In this document: positions 1 to 10,167 of the stretch, in pieces
Numbering within the stretch: position 1 is the first letter of the stretch
Layout: each line of letters begins with the position of its first letter
Source: Gemmobacter caeni
Lineage (GTDB): Bacteria; Pseudomonadota; Alphaproteobacteria; Rhodobacterales; Rhodobacteraceae
Assembly: GCF_003054195.1 (NCBI RefSeq)
Contig: NZ_QBKP01000011.1
Coordinates: 62,001 to 126,000, forward strand
Length of the DNA: 64,000 nt
Reading direction: 5' to 3'
Notes under the pieces: model-generated
What the model saw: only the letters and a program-made list of their open reading frames with translations
What the model was told of the DNA's origin: nothing
Databases searched by the model: none
Program-made: the position numbers and the translations under genes

Positions 1-2
1 TG

Positions 3-2858
3 GCGGTTGCGGCAAAGGCAAAGATCCTGCTGATCGCCCGGCGTGACCTGCCGCCGCGTGACGACTGGACAGCGCATCTGGCCCGGCACGGTGCTGTCGA
101 TCCGCTGTCGCGGCGCATCCTCGCGGTGCAGCGGCTGGAAAGCCTTGGCGCCGAGGTGCGGGTCGCCCGCGCCGATGTCTGCAACACCGAGGAGATGCGC
201 GCGGCGATCACGGAGGCGGAGGCCGAATTCGGCCGCATCCGCGCGGTGATCCATGCGGCGGGTGTGGTGGACGACGGCCCGCTGCTGACCAAGAGTCCGG
301 CGGCGGTGGAGGAGGTCTTTGCGCCGAAGCTGCACGGCACGCAGGTGCTGGATACGCTGTTCCCCGATGGGACGCTGGATCTGCTGGTGCTGTTTTCCTC
401 GACCTCCACCATCACCGGCCCGGCGGGGCAGGTGGATTATGTGGCGGCGAACGAATACCTGAACGCCTTTGCGCAGGCACGGGCTGGGGGCAAGACGCGG
501 GTTCTGGCGCTGAACTGGGGTATCTGGTCCGATGTCGGCATGGCGGCAGAGGCGTTGGCAGACCGCACCGGCAACCGCCCACCCGCGCCGAAACTGCCGG
601 TCAGCGGGCGCCCCCTGCTGGCCGAGAGCACCTTTGACCGCGAGGGCGCGCGGCTTTACGAGACCGATCTGAATACCGGAAGCTGGCTGCTGGATGGCCA
701 CCGCACGACGGCCGGTCAGGCCCTGGTGCCCGGTACCGGCTATCTGGAAATCGCGGCCGAGGCGGCGGCGGAAGAAGGCTGGGCGGCCTTTGAACTGCGC
801 GATCTGATGTTCTTCCGCGCGCTTGAAGTGGCGGATGACGCGCAGCGCGCGATGCGGTTGCGACTGTCCGCCACGGACGAGGGCTTTGCGTTCGAGGTCC
901 GTTCTGCGCAGGACTGGCGCGGGCGGCAGGGGTTTGCACTGAACGCGCAGGGGCGGCTGATGCCGCTGCGGGGAACGGCGGCCACGGTCGATCTGGCGGC
1001 GATTGCCGCGCGGATGGGACCGGCAGCCGAGGATGCGAGGGGCATCCGCTCGCCACAGGAGGACCACCTTGCCTTCGGTCCGCGCTGGCGCGTGCTGCAC
1101 CGCATGGCGCTGGGGCAGGGCGAGGGGCTGGCGGTGCTGACCCTGCCGCTGGCAGCGCAGGTCGATCTGACACAGGGCTGGCTGATGCATCCGGCGCTGA
1201 TGGATCTGGCGACCGGCTGGGCCATGGGCCTGATCGAGGGCTACCGCCCCGACCACCTCTGGGTGCCGGTCTCCTATGGCCGGGTGCGGGTCTGGGGGCC
1301 GATCCCGGCGCGGGTCCACAGCTGGGTGCGCAATGCTGCCGCCAACCGGGGCGAGGGACCGGTGGCGGTATTCGACGTCACGCTGGCGGACGACACCGGC
1401 CGCGTGCTGGCCGAGATCGAGGGCTTCACCATCCGGCGGCTGGAAACCGGCTTTGCCGCACCGCCACTGGCCGAACGCGATCTGACCTTCGACACCGATC
1501 CCGCAGGCGCCCGCCCGGCCTCGCCGCAAGAGGAGCGGCTGCTGCACAACCTGTCGCAGGGCATCCGCGCCGAAGAGGGCGCCGATGCCTTCCTGCGTGC
1601 CGTGGCAACCGGGCAGTCGCAGGTCATCGTCTCGTCGCTGGACCTGCCCGCGCTGGTGCGGCAGGCTGACCGGGCCGAGGCCGCCGCACGACCGGAGGGG
1701 CAGAGCTTCGCCCGCCCGGATCTGGACAGCGACTATATCGAGCCACGCAATGACATCGAACGCACGCTTGTCGGCTTCTGGCAGGATCTGCTGGGCGTCG
1801 GGCAGGTGGGGGTCGAGGATGATTTCTTCGCGCTGGGCGGGCACAGCCTCATTGCGGTGCGCCTGTTTGCCATGGTGAAAAAGGCGTTCCGGGTGGATTT
1901 CCCGATCTCTGTGCTGTTCGAGGCGCCGACCATCGCCGCCTGTGCCCGTCTGATCGAGGAACGCATCGGTCCGCAGGACAGCGTGGCCGAAAAGGCGCCG
2001 CAGCCGACCCGTCGCTTCACGCATCTGGTTGCCATGCACGAAGGTGCGGGCGGGCCGAAGCAGCCGTTTTTCCTTGTCGCGGGTATGTTCGGCAATGTGC
2101 TGAACCTGCGGCATCTGGCGCAGCTTCTGGGCGGGGACCGGCCGTTCTATGGCCTTCAGGCGCGCGGGCTGTTCGGCGAGGACGAGCCGCACCGCACCTT
2201 GCCTGAGGCCGCCCGTGACTACATCGCCGAACTTCGGCAGGTGCAGCCTCAGGGGCCTTACCTTCTGGGCGGGTTCTCGGGTGGCGGCCTGACCGCATGG
2301 GAAATGGCGCGGCAACTGGAGGCGGAGGGTGAGGCGGTTTCGCTTCTGGTTCTGCTCGATACGCCGCTGCCGTTGCGCCCGCCGCTGTCCGGTCGCGACA
2401 AGGCGCTGATCAAGCTGGCAGAGCTGAAGATGCGGGGGCCGGGTTATCTGCTGGACTGGGCGAAAGCGCGCTGGGCCTGGGAGGTGCAGAAGCGTCGCCC
2501 CAAAGCAGTGACGGAAACTTCAAATCAGTTCCACAACGCGGAAATCGAAGCCGCCTTCCGGGCCGCCCTGCCGCAATATGCACTGCCGCTTCGCAAAGGG
2601 CCGACCGCCCTGTTCCGTCCGCCGCTGGACCGCAAGTGGAAGGTGTCTAACGGTCAGTGGGTCAGCGCCGCGAAGGAATATGTGTTCGCAGACAATGACC
2701 TGACCCGTTTCGCCCCGGCGCTGGTGGTGCAGGAGGTTCCGGGCGATCACGACAGCATGGTGCTGGAGCCGAATGTCCGCGTTCTGGCGGCGCGTCTGCG
2801 CGAGGCGATTGCGGCGGCCGAAGCCCCGGCCGCGCATCTGCGCGAGGCGGCGGAGTGA
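3..2858 (+). CDS. Type I polyketide synthase, C-terminal part (KR-DH-ACP-TE), 5' partial
   Basis: The frame is open from the window edge, so the N-terminus (KS, AT and the start of KR) lies outside. A ketoreductase comes first: the Rossmann strand KILLIARRD, VIHAAGVVDD, the Ser pair in LVLFSSTSTI, and the catalytic Tyr in VDYVAANEYL at 438. Next is a dehydratase-like hot-dog domain, with GHRTTAGQALVPGTGYLE near 700 and HPALMDLA near 1190. A carrier domain follows, with GGHSL and the phosphopantetheine Ser at 1845. Last is a type I thioesterase, with GGFSGGG (Ser at 2277) and VPGDHDSM as the His. The expected job is reduction, dehydration and release of a polyketide intermediate. Placing KR before DH is not the usual modular order and recalls PfaA-type synthases. 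The next gene starts 4 bases downstream, so they are co-transcribed. The product is unknown. Confidence 0.9.
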   Translation, partial: AVAAKAKILLIARRDLPPRDDWTAHLARHGAVDPLSRRILAVQRLESLGAEVRVARADVCNTEEMRAAITEAEAEFGRIRAVIHAAGVVDDGPLLTKSPAAVEEVFAPKLHGTQVLDTLFPDGTLDLLVLFSSTSTITGPAGQVDYVAANEYLNAFAQARAGGKTRVLALNWGIWSDVGMAAEALADRTGNRPPAPKLPVSGRPLLAESTFDREGARLYETDLNTGSWLLDGHRTTAGQALVPGTGYLEIAAEAAAEEGWAAFELRDLMFFRALEVADDAQRAMRLRLSATDEGFAFEVRSAQDWRGRQGFALNAQGRLMPLRGTAATVDLAAIAARMGPAAEDARGIRSPQEDHLAFGPRWRVLHRMALGQGEGLAVLTLPLAAQVDLTQGWLMHPALMDLATGWAMGLIEGYRPDHLWVPVSYGRVRVWGPIPARVHSWVRNAAANRGEGPVAVFDVTLADDTGRVLAEIEGFTIRRLETGFAAPPLAERDLTFDTDPAGARPASPQEERLLHNLSQGIRAEEGADAFLRAVATGQSQVIVSSLDLPALVRQADRAEAAARPEGQSFARPDLDSDYIEPRNDIERTLVGFWQDLLGVGQVGVEDDFFALGGHSLIAVRLFAMVKKAFRVDFPISVLFEAPTIAACARLIEERIGPQDSVAEKAPQPTRRFTHLVAMHEGAGGPKQPFFLVAGMFGNVLNLRHLAQLLGGDRPFYGLQARGLFGEDEPHRTLPEAARDYIAELRQVQPQGPYLLGGFSGGGLTAWEMARQLEAEGEAVSLLVLLDTPLPLRPPLSGRDKALIKLAELKMRGPGYLLDWAKARWAWEVQKRRPKAVTETSNQFHNAEIEAAFRAALPQYALPLRKGPTALFRPPLDRKWKVSNGQWVSAAKEYVFADNDLTRFAPALVVQEVPGDHDSMVLEPNVRVLAARLREAIAAAEAPAAHLREAAE

Positions 2859-2862
2859 CGCG

Positions 2863-3828
2863 ATGCCCCGGCTGCTGACGGTCATTCTCAACTGGCGGAC
2901 GCCTGACATGACGCTGCGTGCCTGCGAGGCGGCGCTGCGCGAAATGGCCGGGCTTGAGGGCGCCATCACCATCGTTGACAATGCGTCGGGCGATGGCTCG
3001 TTCGAGGCGATGCAGGCAGGCGTCACCGCGCGCGGCTGGGACCGTGGCGCGGTGCCTGTGCAGGTGCTGCAATCCGGACGCAACGGCGGCTTCGGCGCGG
3101 GCAACAACTTTGGCATTCGTGCGGGCCTGCCGGGCGATGTGCGGCCCGATTACGTCTATATCCTGAACTCGGATGCTTTCCCCGATCCCGGTGCCATCCG
3201 TGCGCTGCTGGATCATCTTGAGACCCATCCCGCCACCGGCTTCGCGGGCAGCTATATCCATGGGGATGATGGCGCGCCGCATCGCACAGCCTTCCGCTTT
3301 CCGACCCTCTGGTCGGAACTTGAAGGCGCCGCGCGCTTCGGCCCGATCTCGCGCCTGTTGCGACGCCATATCGTTGCACAGCCGATCCCGCAGGCGACCA
3401 CGCGGGTCGACTGGCTGGCAGGCGCCAGCCTGATGATGCGGCGGGAGGTGCTGGACCGGATCGGGCTGTTCGATGAAACTTTCTTCCTTTACTTTGAGGA
3501 AACCGACCTGTGCCTGCGCGCGGCCCGTGCGGGGTGGCCCACCGATTATGTGCGCGGCTCCGAGGTCACGCATATCGGCTCGGTTTCGACGGGCATGAAG
3601 ACCTGGAGCCGCATTCCGCAATTCTGGCTGGACAGCCGGCGCCATTATTTCACCAAGAACCATGGGCATATCTATGCCGCTGTCGCGACGCTTGCCCATG
3701 TGGCGGGCGGGGTCTTGTGGCGCCTGCGCCTGCTGGTGCAACGCAAGGACCGGGGCGATCCGCCGCATTTCCTGCGCGATCTGATCGTGCATTCCTTGCG
3801 GCGGGTCGGGCAGCGCGATCCGGGGTAA
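2863..3828 (+). CDS. Glycosyltransferase family 2
   Basis: This 321-residue GT-A enzyme is of the rhamnosyltransferase-like kind. Visible motifs are the N-terminal LLTVILNWRT, TIVDNASGDGS (nucleotide-binding Asp), GRNGGFGAGNNFGIR, ILNSDAFPDPGAI (a DxD-equivalent NSD), WLAGASLMMRREV, and FLYFEETDLCLRA, whose ED pair matches the catalytic base region. No transmembrane segment is obvious, so it is probably cytosolic or membrane-associated. The start was chosen at the ATG 4 bases after the PKS stop; an upstream in-frame ATG would overlap the PKS. The position between two synthetase genes suggests it glycosylates the cluster product, but a polysaccharide role cannot be excluded. The sugar donor cannot be read from the sequence. 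Confidence 0.85.
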   Translation: MPRLLTVILNWRTPDMTLRACEAALREMAGLEGAITIVDNASGDGSFEAMQAGVTARGWDRGAVPVQVLQSGRNGGFGAGNNFGIRAGLPGDVRPDYVYILNSDAFPDPGAIRALLDHLETHPATGFAGSYIHGDDGAPHRTAFRFPTLWSELEGAARFGPISRLLRRHIVAQPIPQATTRVDWLAGASLMMRREVLDRIGLFDETFFLYFEETDLCLRAARAGWPTDYVRGSEVTHIGSVSTGMKTWSRIPQFWLDSRRHYFTKNHGHIYAAVATLAHVAGGVLWRLRLLVQRKDRGDPPHFLRDLIVHSLRRVGQRDPG

Positions 3829-3901
3829 ACCCGGAGGAAGAATGGTGTGCGCCCCTTGCAACAGGGGCATCGCCGCCCGCAAGGGGCGGAAGGAGTGTAT
3901 G

Positions 3902-6900
3902 ATGAACCCGGTGTCCTGTTACCTGATCGGCAATGAAAGCCTGACGCGCGAATGCGGTGCGATGTGGCTGGCGCGTGGCCATGCCATTGCGGCGCTGATC
4001 ACCCGCAATGCGGATGTCGCCGCCTGGGGCGTGGGGCAGGGGCTGACGGTCATCGCGCAGGAACCGGGGTGGGAGACGGGGCTGCCTGGCGCGGTGGACT
4101 GGCTCTTGTCGGTGGCCAACCTCTCGCTGGTGCCCGAGACCGCCTTGCAATGCGCGGCGAAGGGCGGCGTGAACTTCCACGACGGGCCGCTGCCGCGTCA
4201 TGCCGGTCTGAACGCGCCGGTCTGGGCCATTCTGGGCGGCGAGTCGGAACATGGCATCACCTGGCATCGCATCACCGATGGCGTGGACGAAGGCGCTATT
4301 CTGGTGCAGCGCCGCTTTCCCATTGCCGCGACCGATACTGCGCTGACGCTGAACACCCGCTGTTTCGAGGCAGCTTTGGACAGCTTCGCCGAGGTGATGG
4401 CGGCGCTGGAGGCCGATGCGCCGGGCGTGGCACAGGATTTCACACAGCGCAGCCTGCATCTGCGGACGGATCGTCCAGCTGCGGCAGGACGGATCGATTT
4501 CACCCAAAGCGCGGATCAGGTGGCCGGGCTGGTGCGGGCGCTGGATCATGGCAGCTATTGGAATCCGCTGACCACGGCAAAGCTGTGGGACGGGCGGCGT
4601 TATGTCGTGGCAGGCGGGGCTGAGGTGGTGCCCGGTGTCGGTGTGCCGGGGCAGGTGCTGGCGGCGCGCGAGGATGCCGTGACGGTGGCCTGCGGCACAG
4701 GCGCAGTGCGGCTGTCGCGGCTGACCTGCCAGAAGGGCTTCCCGGTTTCAGGTCTCAGCCTGCCGAACGCGCTGACATCGGCCAGCCCGGCGGAGGCAGA
4801 GGCCCTGACCCGCGCGCTGGCCGGGGTGGTGCCGAAGGAACTGGCGCATCGCAGGGCGCTGCTGACGCTCGACCCCGCCGAGGTGCCGGGGGCCACCGCC
4901 GCGACGGCACCGGAAGTCTGGAAATCGGTTCCGCTGTCCCTGCCGTCACTGGCACTGGGCGCCCTTGGAGCGGTGCGGCTGTCGGGCAAGCCGGTGGCCG
5001 ATCTGGCCTGTGGCGCGGCCCATGCGACGGAGGGCATCCTGTCGGACTGGGTGCCGCTGCGGGTGGCGGCCGAGGGCCCGCTGCCCGAGGCGCTGGACCG
5101 GGTGGAGGCAGCCTTGCAGGCGGCCGGGCTGCATCCGGCCTTCGCGCTGGACTTGCTGGCGCGTGAGCGGCGGCTGTTCGGGCTGGCCCCGCCCGCCTTT
5201 GGCATTGGCCTTGCGCCGGTACCGGGCACGGTGGTCACGCTTTCCCCTGACGCGCTGCATTATGACGCGAGCCGCCTGAGCGTGAAACAGGCGGAGGCGC
5301 TGGCTGCACGCCTGTCAACCTTTGCCGCTGCCGCGCAGGGCGAGGCGCGGGTGGAAAGTCTGCCGGTTCTGACTGACGCGGAGCGCGAGGCGGCGCTGGT
5401 CGCCCCGAACCGCACGGCGACATCCTATGACGCCACGCAATGCGTGCATCAGGCGTTCGAGGCGCAGGTGGTGCGCAGCCCCGAGGCGGTGGCCGTGGTT
5501 TTCGAGGGCGAAAGCCTGACCTATGCGCAACTGAACGCCCGGGCCAATCGTGCCGCGCATGTGCTGGCGGGTATGGGAGTTCTCCCCGGCACGCTGGTCG
5601 GCCTGCATTGCCGCCGCTCGCTCGATCTGCTGGTGGGCGCGCTGGCCATCCTCAAGGCGGGGGGCGCCTATGTGCCGATGGACCCTGCCTATCCGGCCGA
5701 GCGCACGGCCCTGTTCATCGAAGACAGCGTCTGCCCGGTGATCGTGACGCAAGGCGCACTGTCCGCGGCCTTGCCCGCTGGTCCGGCGCAGCTGTGCCTT
5801 GATACCGATGCCCGGCTGGCCACGGCGCCCGAGGCCAATCCGCACAGCGGCGTCACCTCCGCCGATCTGGCCTATATGATCTATACCTCCGGTTCCACCG
5901 GACGCCCCAAGGGGGTGATGGTTGAACATCGCAATGTGGCGAATTTCTTTGCCGGGATGGATGACCGCATCGACCACACGACAGGGGCGGTCTGGCTGGC
6001 CGTCACCTCGTTGTCCTTCGACATCTCGGTGCTGGAACTGTTCTGGACGCTGGCGCGCGGGTTCAAGCTGGTGCTGACCAGCGACGATAACCGGGCACTG
6101 GTATCGAACGGGCGCATCGGCTCGGCGAAGGGGATGGAGTTTTCGCTTTATTACTGGGGCAATGATGACGGCGCCGGGCCGAAGAAATACGAATTGCTGC
6201 TGGAGGGCGCGAAATTCGCCGACAGCCACGGCTTCTGCGCCGTCTGGACGCCAGAGCGGCATTTTCACGCCTTCGGCGGTCCCTATCCGAACCCTGCGGT
6301 CACGGGCGCGGCGGTCGCGGCGGTCACGAAGAACATCGGTGTGCGGTCGGGTTCGGTCGTTTTGCCCTTGCATCACCCCGCACGGGTGGCCGAAGATTGG
6401 GCCGTGATCGACAATCTGACAAACGGGCGGGCCGCTTTGGCCGTCGCCTCGGGCTGGCAGCCGGACGATTTTGTCCTGCGCCCCGAAAACACTCCGCCGA
6501 ATAACCGCGCCGCGATGTTCGAGGGGATTGAGCAGGTCCGCCGCCTGTGGCGGGGCGAGACTGTGGATTTCCCGACGAAAACCGGAACCTTTGGTGTGGT
6601 GACACAACCGCGCCCGGTGTCGAAGGAACTGCCGGTCTGGATCACCACCGCCGGTAACCCCGCGACCTGGCGCGAGGCAGGCGAGATCGGTGCCAATGTG
6701 CTGACGCACCTGTTGGGCCAGAGTATCGAGGAAGTCGCCGACAAGATCCGCATCTATCACGACGCGCTGCGCAAGGCGGGCCATGATCCGGCGGATTTTA
6801 AGGTGACGCTGATGCTGCACACCTATGTTTGCCGCGACCGCGATCAGGCGCGGCGGGTGGCGGAAAAGCCGATGAAGGATTACCTCGCCTCGGCCGTGGG

Positions 6901-8416
6901 CCTTGTTAAGCAATATGCCTGGGCCTTCCCGGCCTTCAAGAAGCCGCAGGGCATCGAAAATCCGCAGGACATCGACCTGCGCAGCCTGTCGGACGAGGAG
7001 AACGAGGCGATCCTCGATTTTGCCTTCCACCGCTATTTCGAGGATTCGGGCCTGTTCGGCACGGTCGAGGATGCGCTGGACCGGGTCGAAAGCCTGAAAC
7101 GCATCGGCGTGACCGAGGTGGCCTGTCTGATCGACTATGGCATCGCGCCCGAGGCGGTGATGGAGGGGCTCTATCCGCTGGCCGAGGTGCTGCGCCGCGC
7201 CAATGCGGGCGGGGAACCTGCGGCAGACGATTTCTCGATTGCCGCGCAGATCCTGCGCCACAAGGTGACGCATCTGCAATGCACGCCCTCAATGGCGCGG
7301 ATGATCCTGATGAATGCCGAGGCTGGTATGGCGCTGGGGCAGGTGAAAACCCTGATGCTGGGCGGCGAGGCGCTGCCGGGCGCTTTCGTCCGCGATCTGC
7401 GCAAGGTGACCGGGGCGCGTATCCTCAACATGTATGGGCCGACCGAAACGACGATCTGGTCCACGGTCGAGGAAGCGGGCGATGGCGAAGGCGTGGTGAA
7501 CATCGGCACCCCCATTGCCAATACACAGGTCTATGTGCTGGACGACCGGCAGCAGCCGGTGCCACCCGGCGTGGCGGGCGAGCTGTGGATTGGCGGCGAT
7601 GGCGTGACGCGCGGCTACTGGCAGCGCGAAGATCTGACGGCGGAACGTTTCCTGCCCGATCCGTTCACACCGGGTGGCCGGATGTATCGCACCGGCGATC
7701 TGGTGCGGCTGCGGAGGGATGGCAAGCTCGACTATCTCGGTCGGGCCGATTTCCAGGTCAAGCTGCGCGGCTACCGGATCGAACTGGGCGAGATCGAAAG
7801 CCGGCTGGAGGCGCTTCCGGGCGTCACGCAGGCGGTGGTTCTGGCACGCGAGGATCAGCCGGGCGATTTGCGGCTGGTGGCCTATTACACTGGCACGGCA
7901 CAGGAAACTGCGCTGCGGACGGCGCTGGCTGACAGCCTGCCCGAACATATGGTGCCCGCGCATTTCCTGCTGCTGGAGGTCTTTCCGCTGACCCCCAACC
8001 TCAAGGTGGACCGCAAGGCGCTGCCCGCGCCGCAGGTTCAGGTGGCGGCGGTGGTGCACGAGGCGCCGCAGTCTGGCCTTCAGACACAGATTGCGGAGGT
8101 CTGGCAGCGCGTGCTGGGTGTGCCCAAGGTCGGCGCGAAGGACAATTTCTTTGCACTTGGCGGGCATTCGCTGCTGGCGGTGCAGGCCCACCGGGAACTG
8201 CGCGACGGTCTGGGGCTGTCGAAGCTGTCGATCACCGACATCTTCCGCTTCCCCGTTCTGTCCGCACTGGCCGCGCATCTGGGGGATGCCGCGAAGCCCT
8301 TCGCTGCCCCTGCTGCGAATACAACCGCGCCGCCGCCGGTGACGGAAGACCGGGCGGCCACGCGGGCGGACATGATGGCGCGGCGGCGTGCGCTGCGGAC
8401 GGGGCGTGATGGCTGA
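3902..8416 (+). CDS. Non-ribosomal peptide synthetase: FMT - half C - A(monooxygenase insert) - T
   Basis: The product has 1504 residues if it starts at the ATG six bases after AGGAG (3891-3895). Residues 1-310 resemble methionyl-tRNA formyltransferase, N- and C-domains, with the catalytic triad kept (N91 and H93 in VNFHDGPLP, D129). Residues about 340-500 look like only the C-lobe of a condensation domain; no HHxxxDG is present. The adenylation domain has YTSGSTGRPKG (661), FDIS (706), YGPTE (1178), YRTGD (1262) and K1368. Between A4 and A5, residues about 740-1100 form a luciferase-like FMN monooxygenase (starts EFSLYYWGNDD). The carrier domain has GGHS with S1423. Pocket residues by eye are D707 I708 L711 Q1126 M1152 G1154 M1177 I1185 W1186, close to the glycine code. 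Similar A-domain inserts occur in MtaG/MelG and Atu3671-type synthetases. There is no thioesterase. Confidence 0.92.
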   Translation: MNPVSCYLIGNESLTRECGAMWLARGHAIAALITRNADVAAWGVGQGLTVIAQEPGWETGLPGAVDWLLSVANLSLVPETALQCAAKGGVNFHDGPLPRHAGLNAPVWAILGGESEHGITWHRITDGVDEGAILVQRRFPIAATDTALTLNTRCFEAALDSFAEVMAALEADAPGVAQDFTQRSLHLRTDRPAAAGRIDFTQSADQVAGLVRALDHGSYWNPLTTAKLWDGRRYVVAGGAEVVPGVGVPGQVLAAREDAVTVACGTGAVRLSRLTCQKGFPVSGLSLPNALTSASPAEAEALTRALAGVVPKELAHRRALLTLDPAEVPGATAATAPEVWKSVPLSLPSLALGALGAVRLSGKPVADLACGAAHATEGILSDWVPLRVAAEGPLPEALDRVEAALQAAGLHPAFALDLLARERRLFGLAPPAFGIGLAPVPGTVVTLSPDALHYDASRLSVKQAEALAARLSTFAAAAQGEARVESLPVLTDAEREAALVAPNRTATSYDATQCVHQAFEAQVVRSPEAVAVVFEGESLTYAQLNARANRAAHVLAGMGVLPGTLVGLHCRRSLDLLVGALAILKAGGAYVPMDPAYPAERTALFIEDSVCPVIVTQGALSAALPAGPAQLCLDTDARLATAPEANPHSGVTSADLAYMIYTSGSTGRPKGVMVEHRNVANFFAGMDDRIDHTTGAVWLAVTSLSFDISVLELFWTLARGFKLVLTSDDNRALVSNGRIGSAKGMEFSLYYWGNDDGAGPKKYELLLEGAKFADSHGFCAVWTPERHFHAFGGPYPNPAVTGAAVAAVTKNIGVRSGSVVLPLHHPARVAEDWAVIDNLTNGRAALAVASGWQPDDFVLRPENTPPNNRAAMFEGIEQVRRLWRGETVDFPTKTGTFGVVTQPRPVSKELPVWITTAGNPATWREAGEIGANVLTHLLGQSIEEVADKIRIYHDALRKAGHDPADFKVTLMLHTYVCRDRDQARRVAEKPMKDYLASAVGLVKQYAWAFPAFKKPQGIENPQDIDLRSLSDEENEAILDFAFHRYFEDSGLFGTVEDALDRVESLKRIGVTEVACLIDYGIAPEAVMEGLYPLAEVLRRANAGGEPAADDFSIAAQILRHKVTHLQCTPSMARMILMNAEAGMALGQVKTLMLGGEALPGAFVRDLRKVTGARILNMYGPTETTIWSTVEEAGDGEGVVNIGTPIANTQVYVLDDRQQPVPPGVAGELWIGGDGVTRGYWQREDLTAERFLPDPFTPGGRMYRTGDLVRLRRDGKLDYLGRADFQVKLRGYRIELGEIESRLEALPGVTQAVVLAREDQPGDLRLVAYYTGTAQETALRTALADSLPEHMVPAHFLLLEVFPLTPNLKVDRKALPAPQVQVAAVVHEAPQSGLQTQIAEVWQRVLGVPKVGAKDNFFALGGHSLLAVQAHRELRDGLGLSKLSITDIFRFPVLSALAAHLGDAAKPFAAPAANTTAPPPVTEDRAATRADMMARRRALRTGRDG

Positions 8417-9035
8417 TCTGAAGGCGTTGTCTGTTGCGGCACGGGATCTTCTGCCCGCAGCCGTCGGGGTTGGTGTCAGCGATCCGCAGGGTGATCACCC
8501 TCCCTTTCCGGGCGAAGAGGCGAGCGGCCTGCCCCAGCGGCTGGCCGAGTTCCGCGCCGGTCGAGTGGCGGTGCGCGAGGCGATGGCGATGATTGGCCTG
8601 CCGCCCCTGCCGGTGCCGATGGGTGAGGACCGCGCGCCGGTCTGGCCCAGGGGGCTGATCGGCTCGATCAGCCATTCGGCGCAGCTTTGCCTTGCCGCCG
8701 TCGCCGTGCCCTCGCCCCTTCGGGGGCTTGGTGTCGATCTGGAACCGGCGCTGCCGCTGGAGGACGATCTGCGCGCGGCGGTCCTGCGTCCCGAGGAAGA
8801 GCATTACGACCCGCACAGGGCCAAGCTGGTCTTTGCAGCCAAGGAAGCTGCCTACAAGGCGCAATATGGCCTCAGCCGCACGCTGTTCGATTTCCATGTC
8901 CTGTCGGTCGATCTGCAACCCGGCAGCTTCACGGCGACATTTCAGGAGGAAATCACCCCCTTCCGTGGCGGCCATATCCTGCATGGCAGATGGGCCGAGG
9001 TGGCGGGCCATTTCCTGTGCACGGTAACGCTCTGA
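8409..9035 (+). CDS. 4'-phosphopantetheinyl transferase (EntD/Sfp type)
   Basis: This enzyme of 208 residues transfers phosphopantetheine from CoA to carrier-domain serines, here most plausibly those of the PKS and NRPS just upstream. The signature elements are all visible: GSISHS, GLGVDLEPALPLE (Mg-binding Asp/Glu) and LVFAAKEAAYKAQYG, the (W/F)xxKExxxK block. The EntD-like N-terminal segment includes FRAGRVAVREAM. The ATG at 8409 overlaps the NRPS stop by 8 bases, which points to translational coupling and to dedication to this cluster. It is the last gene of the cluster; a GC-rich inverted repeat without a T tract (9043-9060) follows. Confidence 0.93.
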   Translation: MADLKALSVAARDLLPAAVGVGVSDPQGDHPPFPGEEASGLPQRLAEFRAGRVAVREAMAMIGLPPLPVPMGEDRAPVWPRGLIGSISHSAQLCLAAVAVPSPLRGLGVDLEPALPLEDDLRAAVLRPEEEHYDPHRAKLVFAAKEAAYKAQYGLSRTLFDFHVLSVDLQPGSFTATFQEEITPFRGGHILHGRWAEVAGHFLCTVTL

Positions 9036-9072: not shown

Positions 9073-10167
9073 ATGCGCGAGACCCTGACCCAGATCTACG
9101 AAGCCCGTGTCGCTGCCGGACGGCTGCGGCCCGATCCGGCCCAACATGCAGTATTGCCGATCCTTGAGGATCTGCGCCGCTGGCTGGAGGAAAACGCCAC
9201 CCGCAAGGTGGGGCTGTTCGCGGGCCTGTTCGCCCGCCCGGTGACGCCACCCAGGGGGCTGTATCTTTGGGGCGGGGTGGGGCGCGGCAAGTCCATGGTG
9301 ATGGATCTGTTTGTCGAAAGCCTGGACATTACGCAGAAGCGGCGGGTGCATTTCCATGCTTTCATGCAGGAAATCCACAAGGGTATGCATGAGGCGCGAC
9401 AGCGCGGAGTGGAAGATGCGCTGAAGCCTGTGGCTGACCGCGTGGCCAAAGATGTGCGGCTGCTGGCCTTCGACGAAATGCAGATCACCGACATTACCGA
9501 TGCGATGATCGTCGGGCGGCTGTTCCAGCTGCTTGCCGATCAGGGCGTGGTGATCGTGACCACCTCGAACCGGGTGCCCGAGGATCTCTACAAGAACGGG
9601 CTCAATCGCGGGCTGTTCCTGCCCTTCATCGACTGGCTGCGCGAGAGGTTCATCGTGCACGAGCTGGAGAGCCCGAACGATTACCGCCAACACCGGCTGC
9701 AAGGGGCGCAGGTCTATTTTCATCCGGCAGGGCAAAGCGGCCCGGCGATCGAGGCGATCTGGCGCGATCTGGTGGGCGGGGTCTCTGGTCAGCCGCTGCT
9801 GCTGGAGGTGAATGGCCGACAGGTGGAAATTCCGCGCTTTGCCAATGGCGTGGGGCGCGCGACCTTCTGGGATCTCTGTGCCCGTCCTCTGGGACCGGCG
9901 GATTATCTGGCCATCGCGCAGGCGCTGCGCGTGCTGGTGCTGGAGGATGTGCCACAACTTTCCGCCTCGAACTACAACGAGGCGAAGCGCTTCGTCACGC
10001 TGATCGACGCCTTGTATGAGGCAAAGGTGCGGCTGATCTGTTCGGCGGCGGATGTGCCCGAACGGCTTTATGCCGAGGGCACGGGGGCGTTTGAATTTGA
10101 ACGCACCGCCAGCCGTCTGCGCGAAATGCAGGATGCCGCCTGGGGCAGCGAGGCGGCGGCGGAGTAA
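9073..10167 (+). CDS. zapE: Cell division protein ZapE (AFG1-like ATPase)
   Basis: The product is an AAA-like P-loop ATPase of 364 residues, the length normal for bacterial ZapE. Walker A is GGVGRGKS, Walker B is LLAFDEMQITD, and sensor-like TTSNRVPEDLYKNGL and RFIVHELESPNDYR follow, all typical of the AFG1/ZapE family. In E. coli ZapE acts at the constricting Z-ring, and the mitochondrial relative Afg1/LACE1 assists respiratory complex turnover. The start is the ATG directly before RETLTQIYEARV, the usual N-terminus. It stands alone, with the carbonic anhydrase gene converging 16 bases downstream. Its position after a secondary-metabolite cluster looks incidental. Confidence 0.92.
   Translation: MRETLTQIYEARVAAGRLRPDPAQHAVLPILEDLRRWLEENATRKVGLFAGLFARPVTPPRGLYLWGGVGRGKSMVMDLFVESLDITQKRRVHFHAFMQEIHKGMHEARQRGVEDALKPVADRVAKDVRLLAFDEMQITDITDAMIVGRLFQLLADQGVVIVTTSNRVPEDLYKNGLNRGLFLPFIDWLRERFIVHELESPNDYRQHRLQGAQVYFHPAGQSGPAIEAIWRDLVGGVSGQPLLLEVNGRQVEIPRFANGVGRATFWDLCARPLGPADYLAIAQALRVLVLEDVPQLSASNYNEAKRFVTLIDALYEAKVRLICSAADVPERLYAEGTGAFEFERTASRLREMQDAAWGSEAAAE

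Follow-up and report, generated by a model that had tools for sequence, protein, structure and literature searches.

A formyltransferase-bearing synthetase with a monooxygenase-split adenylation domain in a polysaccharide locus of Gemmobacter caeni

Comparison with described initiation modules

Starter modules of nonribosomal peptide synthetases (NRPSs) with the order F-A(Gly)-PCP exist, and the section of PMC5764310 that covers them gives PtxE (phthoxazolin), OzmO (oxazolomycin) and CongA (conglobatin) an F domain, an A domain and a carrier followed by a polyketide synthase (PKS), with glycine as the residue for PtxE. In a passage of PMC9396620, the monooxygenase (MO) domain of the myxothiazol line is described as alpha-hydroxylating and cleaving glycine, and the flavin monooxygenase FbnE is proposed, in an excerpt of PMC12971057, to make alpha-hydroxycarboxylates. 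Domains nested in A domains lie generally between a8 and a9 in the part of a review that deals with their sites (PMC8949500).

The window analysed here (the whole stretch of 64,000 nucleotides, C11:62001-126000 of the 5.1 Mb Gemmobacter caeni genome) contains a synthetase gene (3902..8416, plus strand) that Pfam, NCBIfam and an alignment of homologues resolve into formyltransferase (FT), half condensation (C) domain, A(MO), PCP and tail. It resembles PtxE, OzmO and CongA in its domain order and its partner PKS, and differs in an MO insert, which the same section of PMC5764310 does not mention for those three. The insert lies between A4 and A5, unlike the general a8/a9 site of that part of PMC8949500. 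FbnE, as an assembly-line flavin monooxygenase in the excerpt cited, can be likened to the MO by description only. PuwE has an MO of the same family: the insert matches the PuwE structure 6ket with an E value of 2.9e-105, and the Foldseek alignment gave 48% identity with a TM score of 0.89 on the target. To our knowledge, the MO of neither PuwE nor FbnE is inserted in an A domain.

LgrA of linear gramicidin shares the F-A-PCP order, although its match to the FT is weak in sequence (about 1e-5), and its initiation module, as far as we know, has no MO and no half C domain. MtaG has the architecture C-A(MO)-PCP, with the MO inside a glycine A domain. Like MtaG and MelG, the synthetase carries its MO within an A domain for glycine, as judged by the specificity code; unlike those modules, it lacks the N-terminal half of the C domain, is headed by an FT and starts its line. 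An intact C domain that accepts a peptide, the feature of MtaG-type modules, was not found in the synthetase; upstream of the A domain, nothing of a C domain beyond its C-terminal half can be recognised, and no functional condensation domain stands in front. The catalytic N, H and D of an FT upstream of A-PCP, the feature of a formylating initiation module, are present. We regard the synthetase as a likely derivative of an MtaG-type amide-forming module, not as a member. Terminal amide formation as in myxothiazol is unlikely, since there is no intact C domain, the partner PKS ends in a thioesterase (TE) and the module apparently starts the line.

Domain architecture and history of the synthetase

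The open frame of the synthetase spans 3842-8416 on the plus strand (1524 codons). Most homologue alignments begin at residue 20 or 21 of this frame, so translation likely starts at 3902 or at 3899, the latter directly preceded by AAGGAG. Residues are numbered here in the 1524-codon frame, whereas the earlier note counted from M21. The synthetase has a 94% match in Gemmobacter lutimaris.

An earlier note, made from the sequence by itself, had read an FT, a split A domain and a carrier in one chain, and the domain search it proposed (Formyl_trans_N/C, AMP-binding, TIGR04020 and PP-binding), run with Pfam and NCBIfam, returned every one of these families. The FT (residues 21-310; 3902..4771), delimited by Pfam, conserved residues and a structure model, matched Formyl_trans_N at residues 84-180 (E 4e-17) and Formyl_trans_C at 215-303 (1.3e-7). 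AMP-binding matched in two stretches (6e-88), which correspond to an N-terminal part with A1-A4 (5456..6094; Pfam and motifs) and a C-terminal part with A5-A10 (7226..8026; profile matches and motifs). The carrier (8087..8281) matched PP-binding at 1416-1480 (1e-11) and has its serine, Ser1443, in the motif GGHS. A model of A(MO)-PCP (mean pLDDT 84.4, pTM 0.67) matched NRPS modules in Foldseek, LgrA structures among them, as well as the PuwE oxygenase.

Conservation was assessed in an alignment of the query and 88 homologues, which come from 79 of the 80 genome-contig loci (all except L083, which has no frame of at least 1300 aa) and from nine plasmid loci; loci L101-L122 stand outside it. Across these 89 sequences, the motifs of the A domain are retained, as is the serine of the carrier. 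Median identity to the query over the 88 rows was 57% for FT-N, 47% for FT-C, 37% for the half C domain, 78% for the MO and 66% for the carrier. After a variable linker rich in Pro and Ala, the homologues end in a conserved basic tail of about DAMARRRAMR (8369..8398), found in 84 of the 89 tails by one pattern and in 77 by another. This tail is possibly a docking element to the PKS.

The FT residues N111, H113 and D149 (4172, 4178 and 4286) are identical in all 89 aligned sequences. They are the N91, H93 and D129 that the earlier note had named as catalytic, with their loss in a proper alignment as grounds for abandoning its reading; all three are retained. Since they are invariant, the FT is not a relic, and its higher identity compared with the half C domain indicates that the FT is apparently under constraint while the half C domain drifts. 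The second option of that note, in which a relic FT would sit on an amide-forming module, conflicts with both findings.

The best PDB sequence match of the FT is the GDP-perosamine formyltransferase WbkC (E 1.1e-22), well ahead of LgrA, and a model of residues 20-532 (mean pLDDT 95.3) matches formyltransferases of the MTF, ArnA and WbkC kinds. This match, together with a locus that would make a polysaccharide, could mean that the FT formylates an amino sugar of the polymer instead of carrier-bound glycine. However, the WbkC match does not decide the substrate, because sugar formyltransferases are the presumed ancestors of NRPS F domains, and in all 89 aligned rows the FT and the A(MO) module form one chain; among the further loci it is a separate, adjacent frame in Deinococcus (L102) only. 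We consider sugar formylation improbable; the FT would instead N-formylate the residue that the synthetase loads.

The condensation domain, of which the C-terminal half remains (residues 312-532, about 220 residues; 4775..5437), had no Pfam match even at E values up to 10, and the 50 top matches of a PDB fold search with FT plus half C domain were formyltransferases and their kin, so its assignment comes from profile comparison. In hhalign, a profile of 41 half C sequences aligned with positions 190-457 of the 462 in a profile built from three intact C domains at a probability of 96.8% (E 3e-10), which upholds the half condensation domain of the earlier note.

The inserted luciferase-like MO (residues 767-1116; 6140..7189) is covered by TIGR04020, the MupA/Atu3671-type MO family, with 474 bits against a curated cut-off of 244, and by Bac_luciferase at residues 775-1091 (6e-52). 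It interrupts the A domain between FDISVLELF (726-734) and NMYGPTE (1196-1202), which we take to be A4 and A5; the placement proposed earlier thus holds. The specificity code reads DILQMGMIWK in 66 of the 89 sequences, differs at one position in 22, and differs at one position with a further residue unread in the remaining one. We take this code to be that of glycine, and the A domain probably loads this amino acid.

C-A(MO)-PCP modules with an intact C domain were found in Nostoc (L103), Streptomyces (L104) and genome G532 (L116). The Streptomyces module occurs with a TE and an adjoining flavin reductase. A midpoint-rooted MO tree was built from 38 sequences, namely the query and 37 of 104 rows (one in six of the genome-contig rows and all others), with MtaG, MelG and oxime-forming oxygenases outside the sampling. 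In this tree, 32 FT-type rows form one group with support of 93/84, just under the starred level; an inner group of 27 rows that includes the query has support of 100/100. The FT-type group adjoins the Nostoc, Streptomyces and G532 rows, and the comparison with MtaG-type modules made at the outset was therefore a useful one; these three have the MtaG-type layout, and MtaG and MelG themselves are likened by description only. In addition, at least 92 of 93 FT-type rows agree at each of 107 MO positions, and 80 of these positions are common to all three C-A(MO) rows. The half C domain is likely a fossil of an intact C-A(MO)-PCP state, and we infer as the simplest history that, in a glycine module of the C-A(MO)-PCP kind, an FT took the place of the C-domain N-lobe. 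The FT would then do the job of the C domain that was lost, N-acylation of glycine ahead of the MO reaction.

Counted by the TIGR04020 MO, irrespective of the FT, 84 of 248 Rhodobacteraceae genomes (one per genus; about a third) have a hit over the cut-off, within an open frame of 1,480 to 1,877 codons in 76 of them and a shorter one in eight. In a phylum-wide set the count was 14 of 299, seven of these 14, G. caeni included, being Rhodobacteraceae. Related loci occur in Hydrogenophaga, Aminobacter, Shinella, Paracoccus, Ruegeria, Rhizobium, Methylobacterium and Deinococcus. A second lineage in the Rhodobacteraceae has FT-A(MO)-PCP followed by a longer PKS/NRPS line (L099:15022-28761; the line of L122 is cut). 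Among phage records, 64 matched and none over 80% of the synthetase; the five listed match A-domain parts at 36-39%. A further NRPS-like frame of the G. caeni genome (C7:153688-155529; 1359 codons) is 37-40% identical to stretches of the A and carrier domains. We found no characterised product for the FT-A(MO) architecture in the open-licence literature, and one may possibly have been described elsewhere.

Partner polyketide synthase and polysaccharide locus

The synthetase is preceded on the same strand by a PKS gene, whose 3' part (1..2858) lies in the window and whose full length (C11:58463-64858, 2131 aa) encodes, by Pfam, the single module KS-AT-KR-DH-ACP-TE. A family 2 glycosyltransferase (GT2; 2863..3828, plus strand; Pfam Glycos_transf_2) lies between the two genes, and its homologues mostly align from about residue 31. 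A 4'-phosphopantetheinyl transferase (PPTase; 8409..9035, plus strand; Pfam 4PPT_N and ACPS) follows, and its start overlaps the synthetase stop. None of these four core genes encodes a flavin reductase. Downstream of the PPTase, an ATPase frame (9073-10167) that we provisionally name ZapE-like has counterparts near the synthetase in nine of the 80 loci.

A neighbourhood search, likewise put forward in the earlier note, recovered the block PKS-GT2-NRPS-PPTase as conserved in most genome-contig loci: the four genes stand side by side in 65 of 79 (contig ends cut some of the remaining 14) and in one of nine plasmid loci. The gene order is not fixed, and the PKS lies on the opposite strand in Aminobacter and Shinella. 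In the PKS rows of at least 2000 aa, with L099 left out, the catalytic positions of KS, AT, KR, DH, ACP and TE have the common residue in 77 or 78 of 78 rows; a PDB search with the PKS returned ordinary PKS relatives. The order KS-AT-KR-DH-ACP recurs in all four partner lines scanned, and these end in TE in the query and in Methylobacterium (L101), in C-A-PCP-TE in Aliiroseovarius (L099) and in C in Deinococcus (L102), which indicates a constant glycine-plus-malonate part with a variable release. The terminal C domain of the Deinococcus PKS (L102:20108-26770) has HHLAADA in place of HHxxxDG, and only its own record among the plasmid records covers at least 80% of that PKS. No frame of at least 60 aa carried the SGGKDS motif of CongE, PtxD and OzmP in the 92 loci scanned (L101-L122 stand outside the scan), and with no such cyclodehydratase near, we rejected an oxazole route as in phthoxazolin.

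Before the PKS, C11:46335-58273 encodes a GT4, a flippase, a priming sugar transferase (Bac_transf), Wzz, a ParA/CbiA-type ATPase, a WecG/TagA/CpsF protein, two GT2, an acyltransferase 3 and a polymerase candidate. By Wzx/Wzy criteria, the flippase, Bac_transf, Wzz, WecG and several glycosyltransferases are present, and the polymerase candidate has no Pfam match. WecG and Wzz each occur once in the genome, both at this locus, and one of the two Bac_transf genes is also here. Within the DNA covered at each locus, at least one strict polysaccharide marker was found in 69 of the 80 genome-contig loci, WecG in 43; six of the 11 loci with no strict marker are shorter than 20 kb. Polysaccharide genes surround the line in eight of the nine annotated plasmid loci viewed, and relatives lie among such genes in Hydrogenophaga, Methylobacterium and Deinococcus. 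In the unannotated Methylobacterium record (L101), a UDP-glucose dehydrogenase, a DegT aminotransferase and a GT4 occur together with a Wzz-like protein that scores just below its cut-off.

Among 100 Rhodobacteraceae genomes, one per genus and including G. caeni, a WecG-type glycosyltransferase was found in 38 of the 39 with an MO over the cut-off, compared with 12 of the 61 without (Fisher p ~1e-15, kinship ignored). The MO and WecG are on one contig no more than 30 kb apart in 34 of these 38 genomes, 10-15 kb apart in 29, and on different contigs in the remaining four. This association suggests that the surface polysaccharide carries a small group made by the assembly line, the two being linked by position only.

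A free small molecule from genes that are merely co-located would be compatible with the chemistry preferred below. The Aliiroseovarius line, with a similar starter and a longer KS-AT-KR-DH-ACP-C-A-PCP-TE line, shows no gene annotated for a sugar polymer within 15 kb on either side, which fits such a product. However, the co-occurrence of WecG and the MO at one genome per genus, the narrow spacing of most linked pairs and the polysaccharide genes around the Deinococcus and Methylobacterium lines as well argue for a tie to the polymer, and we consider a free product rather unlikely. An exosortase and a VPLPA-CTERM protein are encoded near the Aliiroseovarius line.

Proposed chemistry and its meaning

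We propose that glycine is loaded, formylated, alpha-oxidised and extended by the PKS to a C4 unit for the surface polysaccharide, with a probability of roughly 55%; domain order, conservation and gene linkage are observed, and the chemistry and the attachment are deduced. The synthetase would start the chain, its A domain loading glycine onto its own carrier and the FT N-formylating the carrier-bound residue. The inserted, presumably FMN-dependent MO would then hydroxylate the alpha carbon of N-formylglycyl-S-PCP, the position attacked in the myxothiazol line, where a peptide would acylate the glycine nitrogen. Either the carbinolamide or, after loss of formamide, a glyoxylyl thioester could pass to the KS of the neighbouring PKS, which would add one malonyl unit, reduce and dehydrate to give an oxidised C4 enoyl unit for release by the TE. 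This unit would most likely end on a sugar of the polymer from the linked Wzx/Wzy-type locus. Formylation followed by alpha-oxidation of the loaded residue was the first option of the earlier note, and it is the one that fits the data best.

The MO might instead oxidise the nitrogen of glycine to a hydroxylamine or oxime, as happens in benzolactone lines with an oxime, with the FT formylating N-hydroxyglycine to a hydroxamate starter that could bind metals. The side chain of lobatamide and oximidine is an oxime-butenoyl group of C4, the length expected when one KR-DH PKS module extends a glycine starter. By analogy, N-oxidation is possible because the oxime of the necroxime line is attributed, in a portion of PMC7318616, to oxygenase, DH and MT domains that act on a glycine primer. 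However, the closest relatives found for the MO belong to C-A(MO) modules, in which the nitrogen of glycine is expected to be acylated, and no genes for a metallophore were spotted in passing in the neighbourhoods viewed. We regard N-oxidation as unlikely, and prefer oxidation of the alpha carbon of formylated glycine.

The FT-A(MO) synthetase is real, conserved and widespread, a variant NRPS initiation module that is notable for its polysaccharide setting. More tentatively, it may mark a widespread class of polysaccharides decorated with an NRPS-PKS acyl group made from formylated, alpha-oxidised glycine and malonate, in which FT-A(MO) arose by an FT replacing half of a C domain. Enzymes of assembly lines are commonly associated with antibiotics and siderophores, and here one apparently belongs to a surface-polysaccharide locus. 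If the formamide is lost, the product would be an aldehyde-bearing enoyl group that could cross-link or glue the polymer. If confirmed, the pathway would be a new route for reactive groups on biofilm polymers, and an FT would be able to succeed a condensation domain in supplying an inserted MO with an N-acylated substrate.
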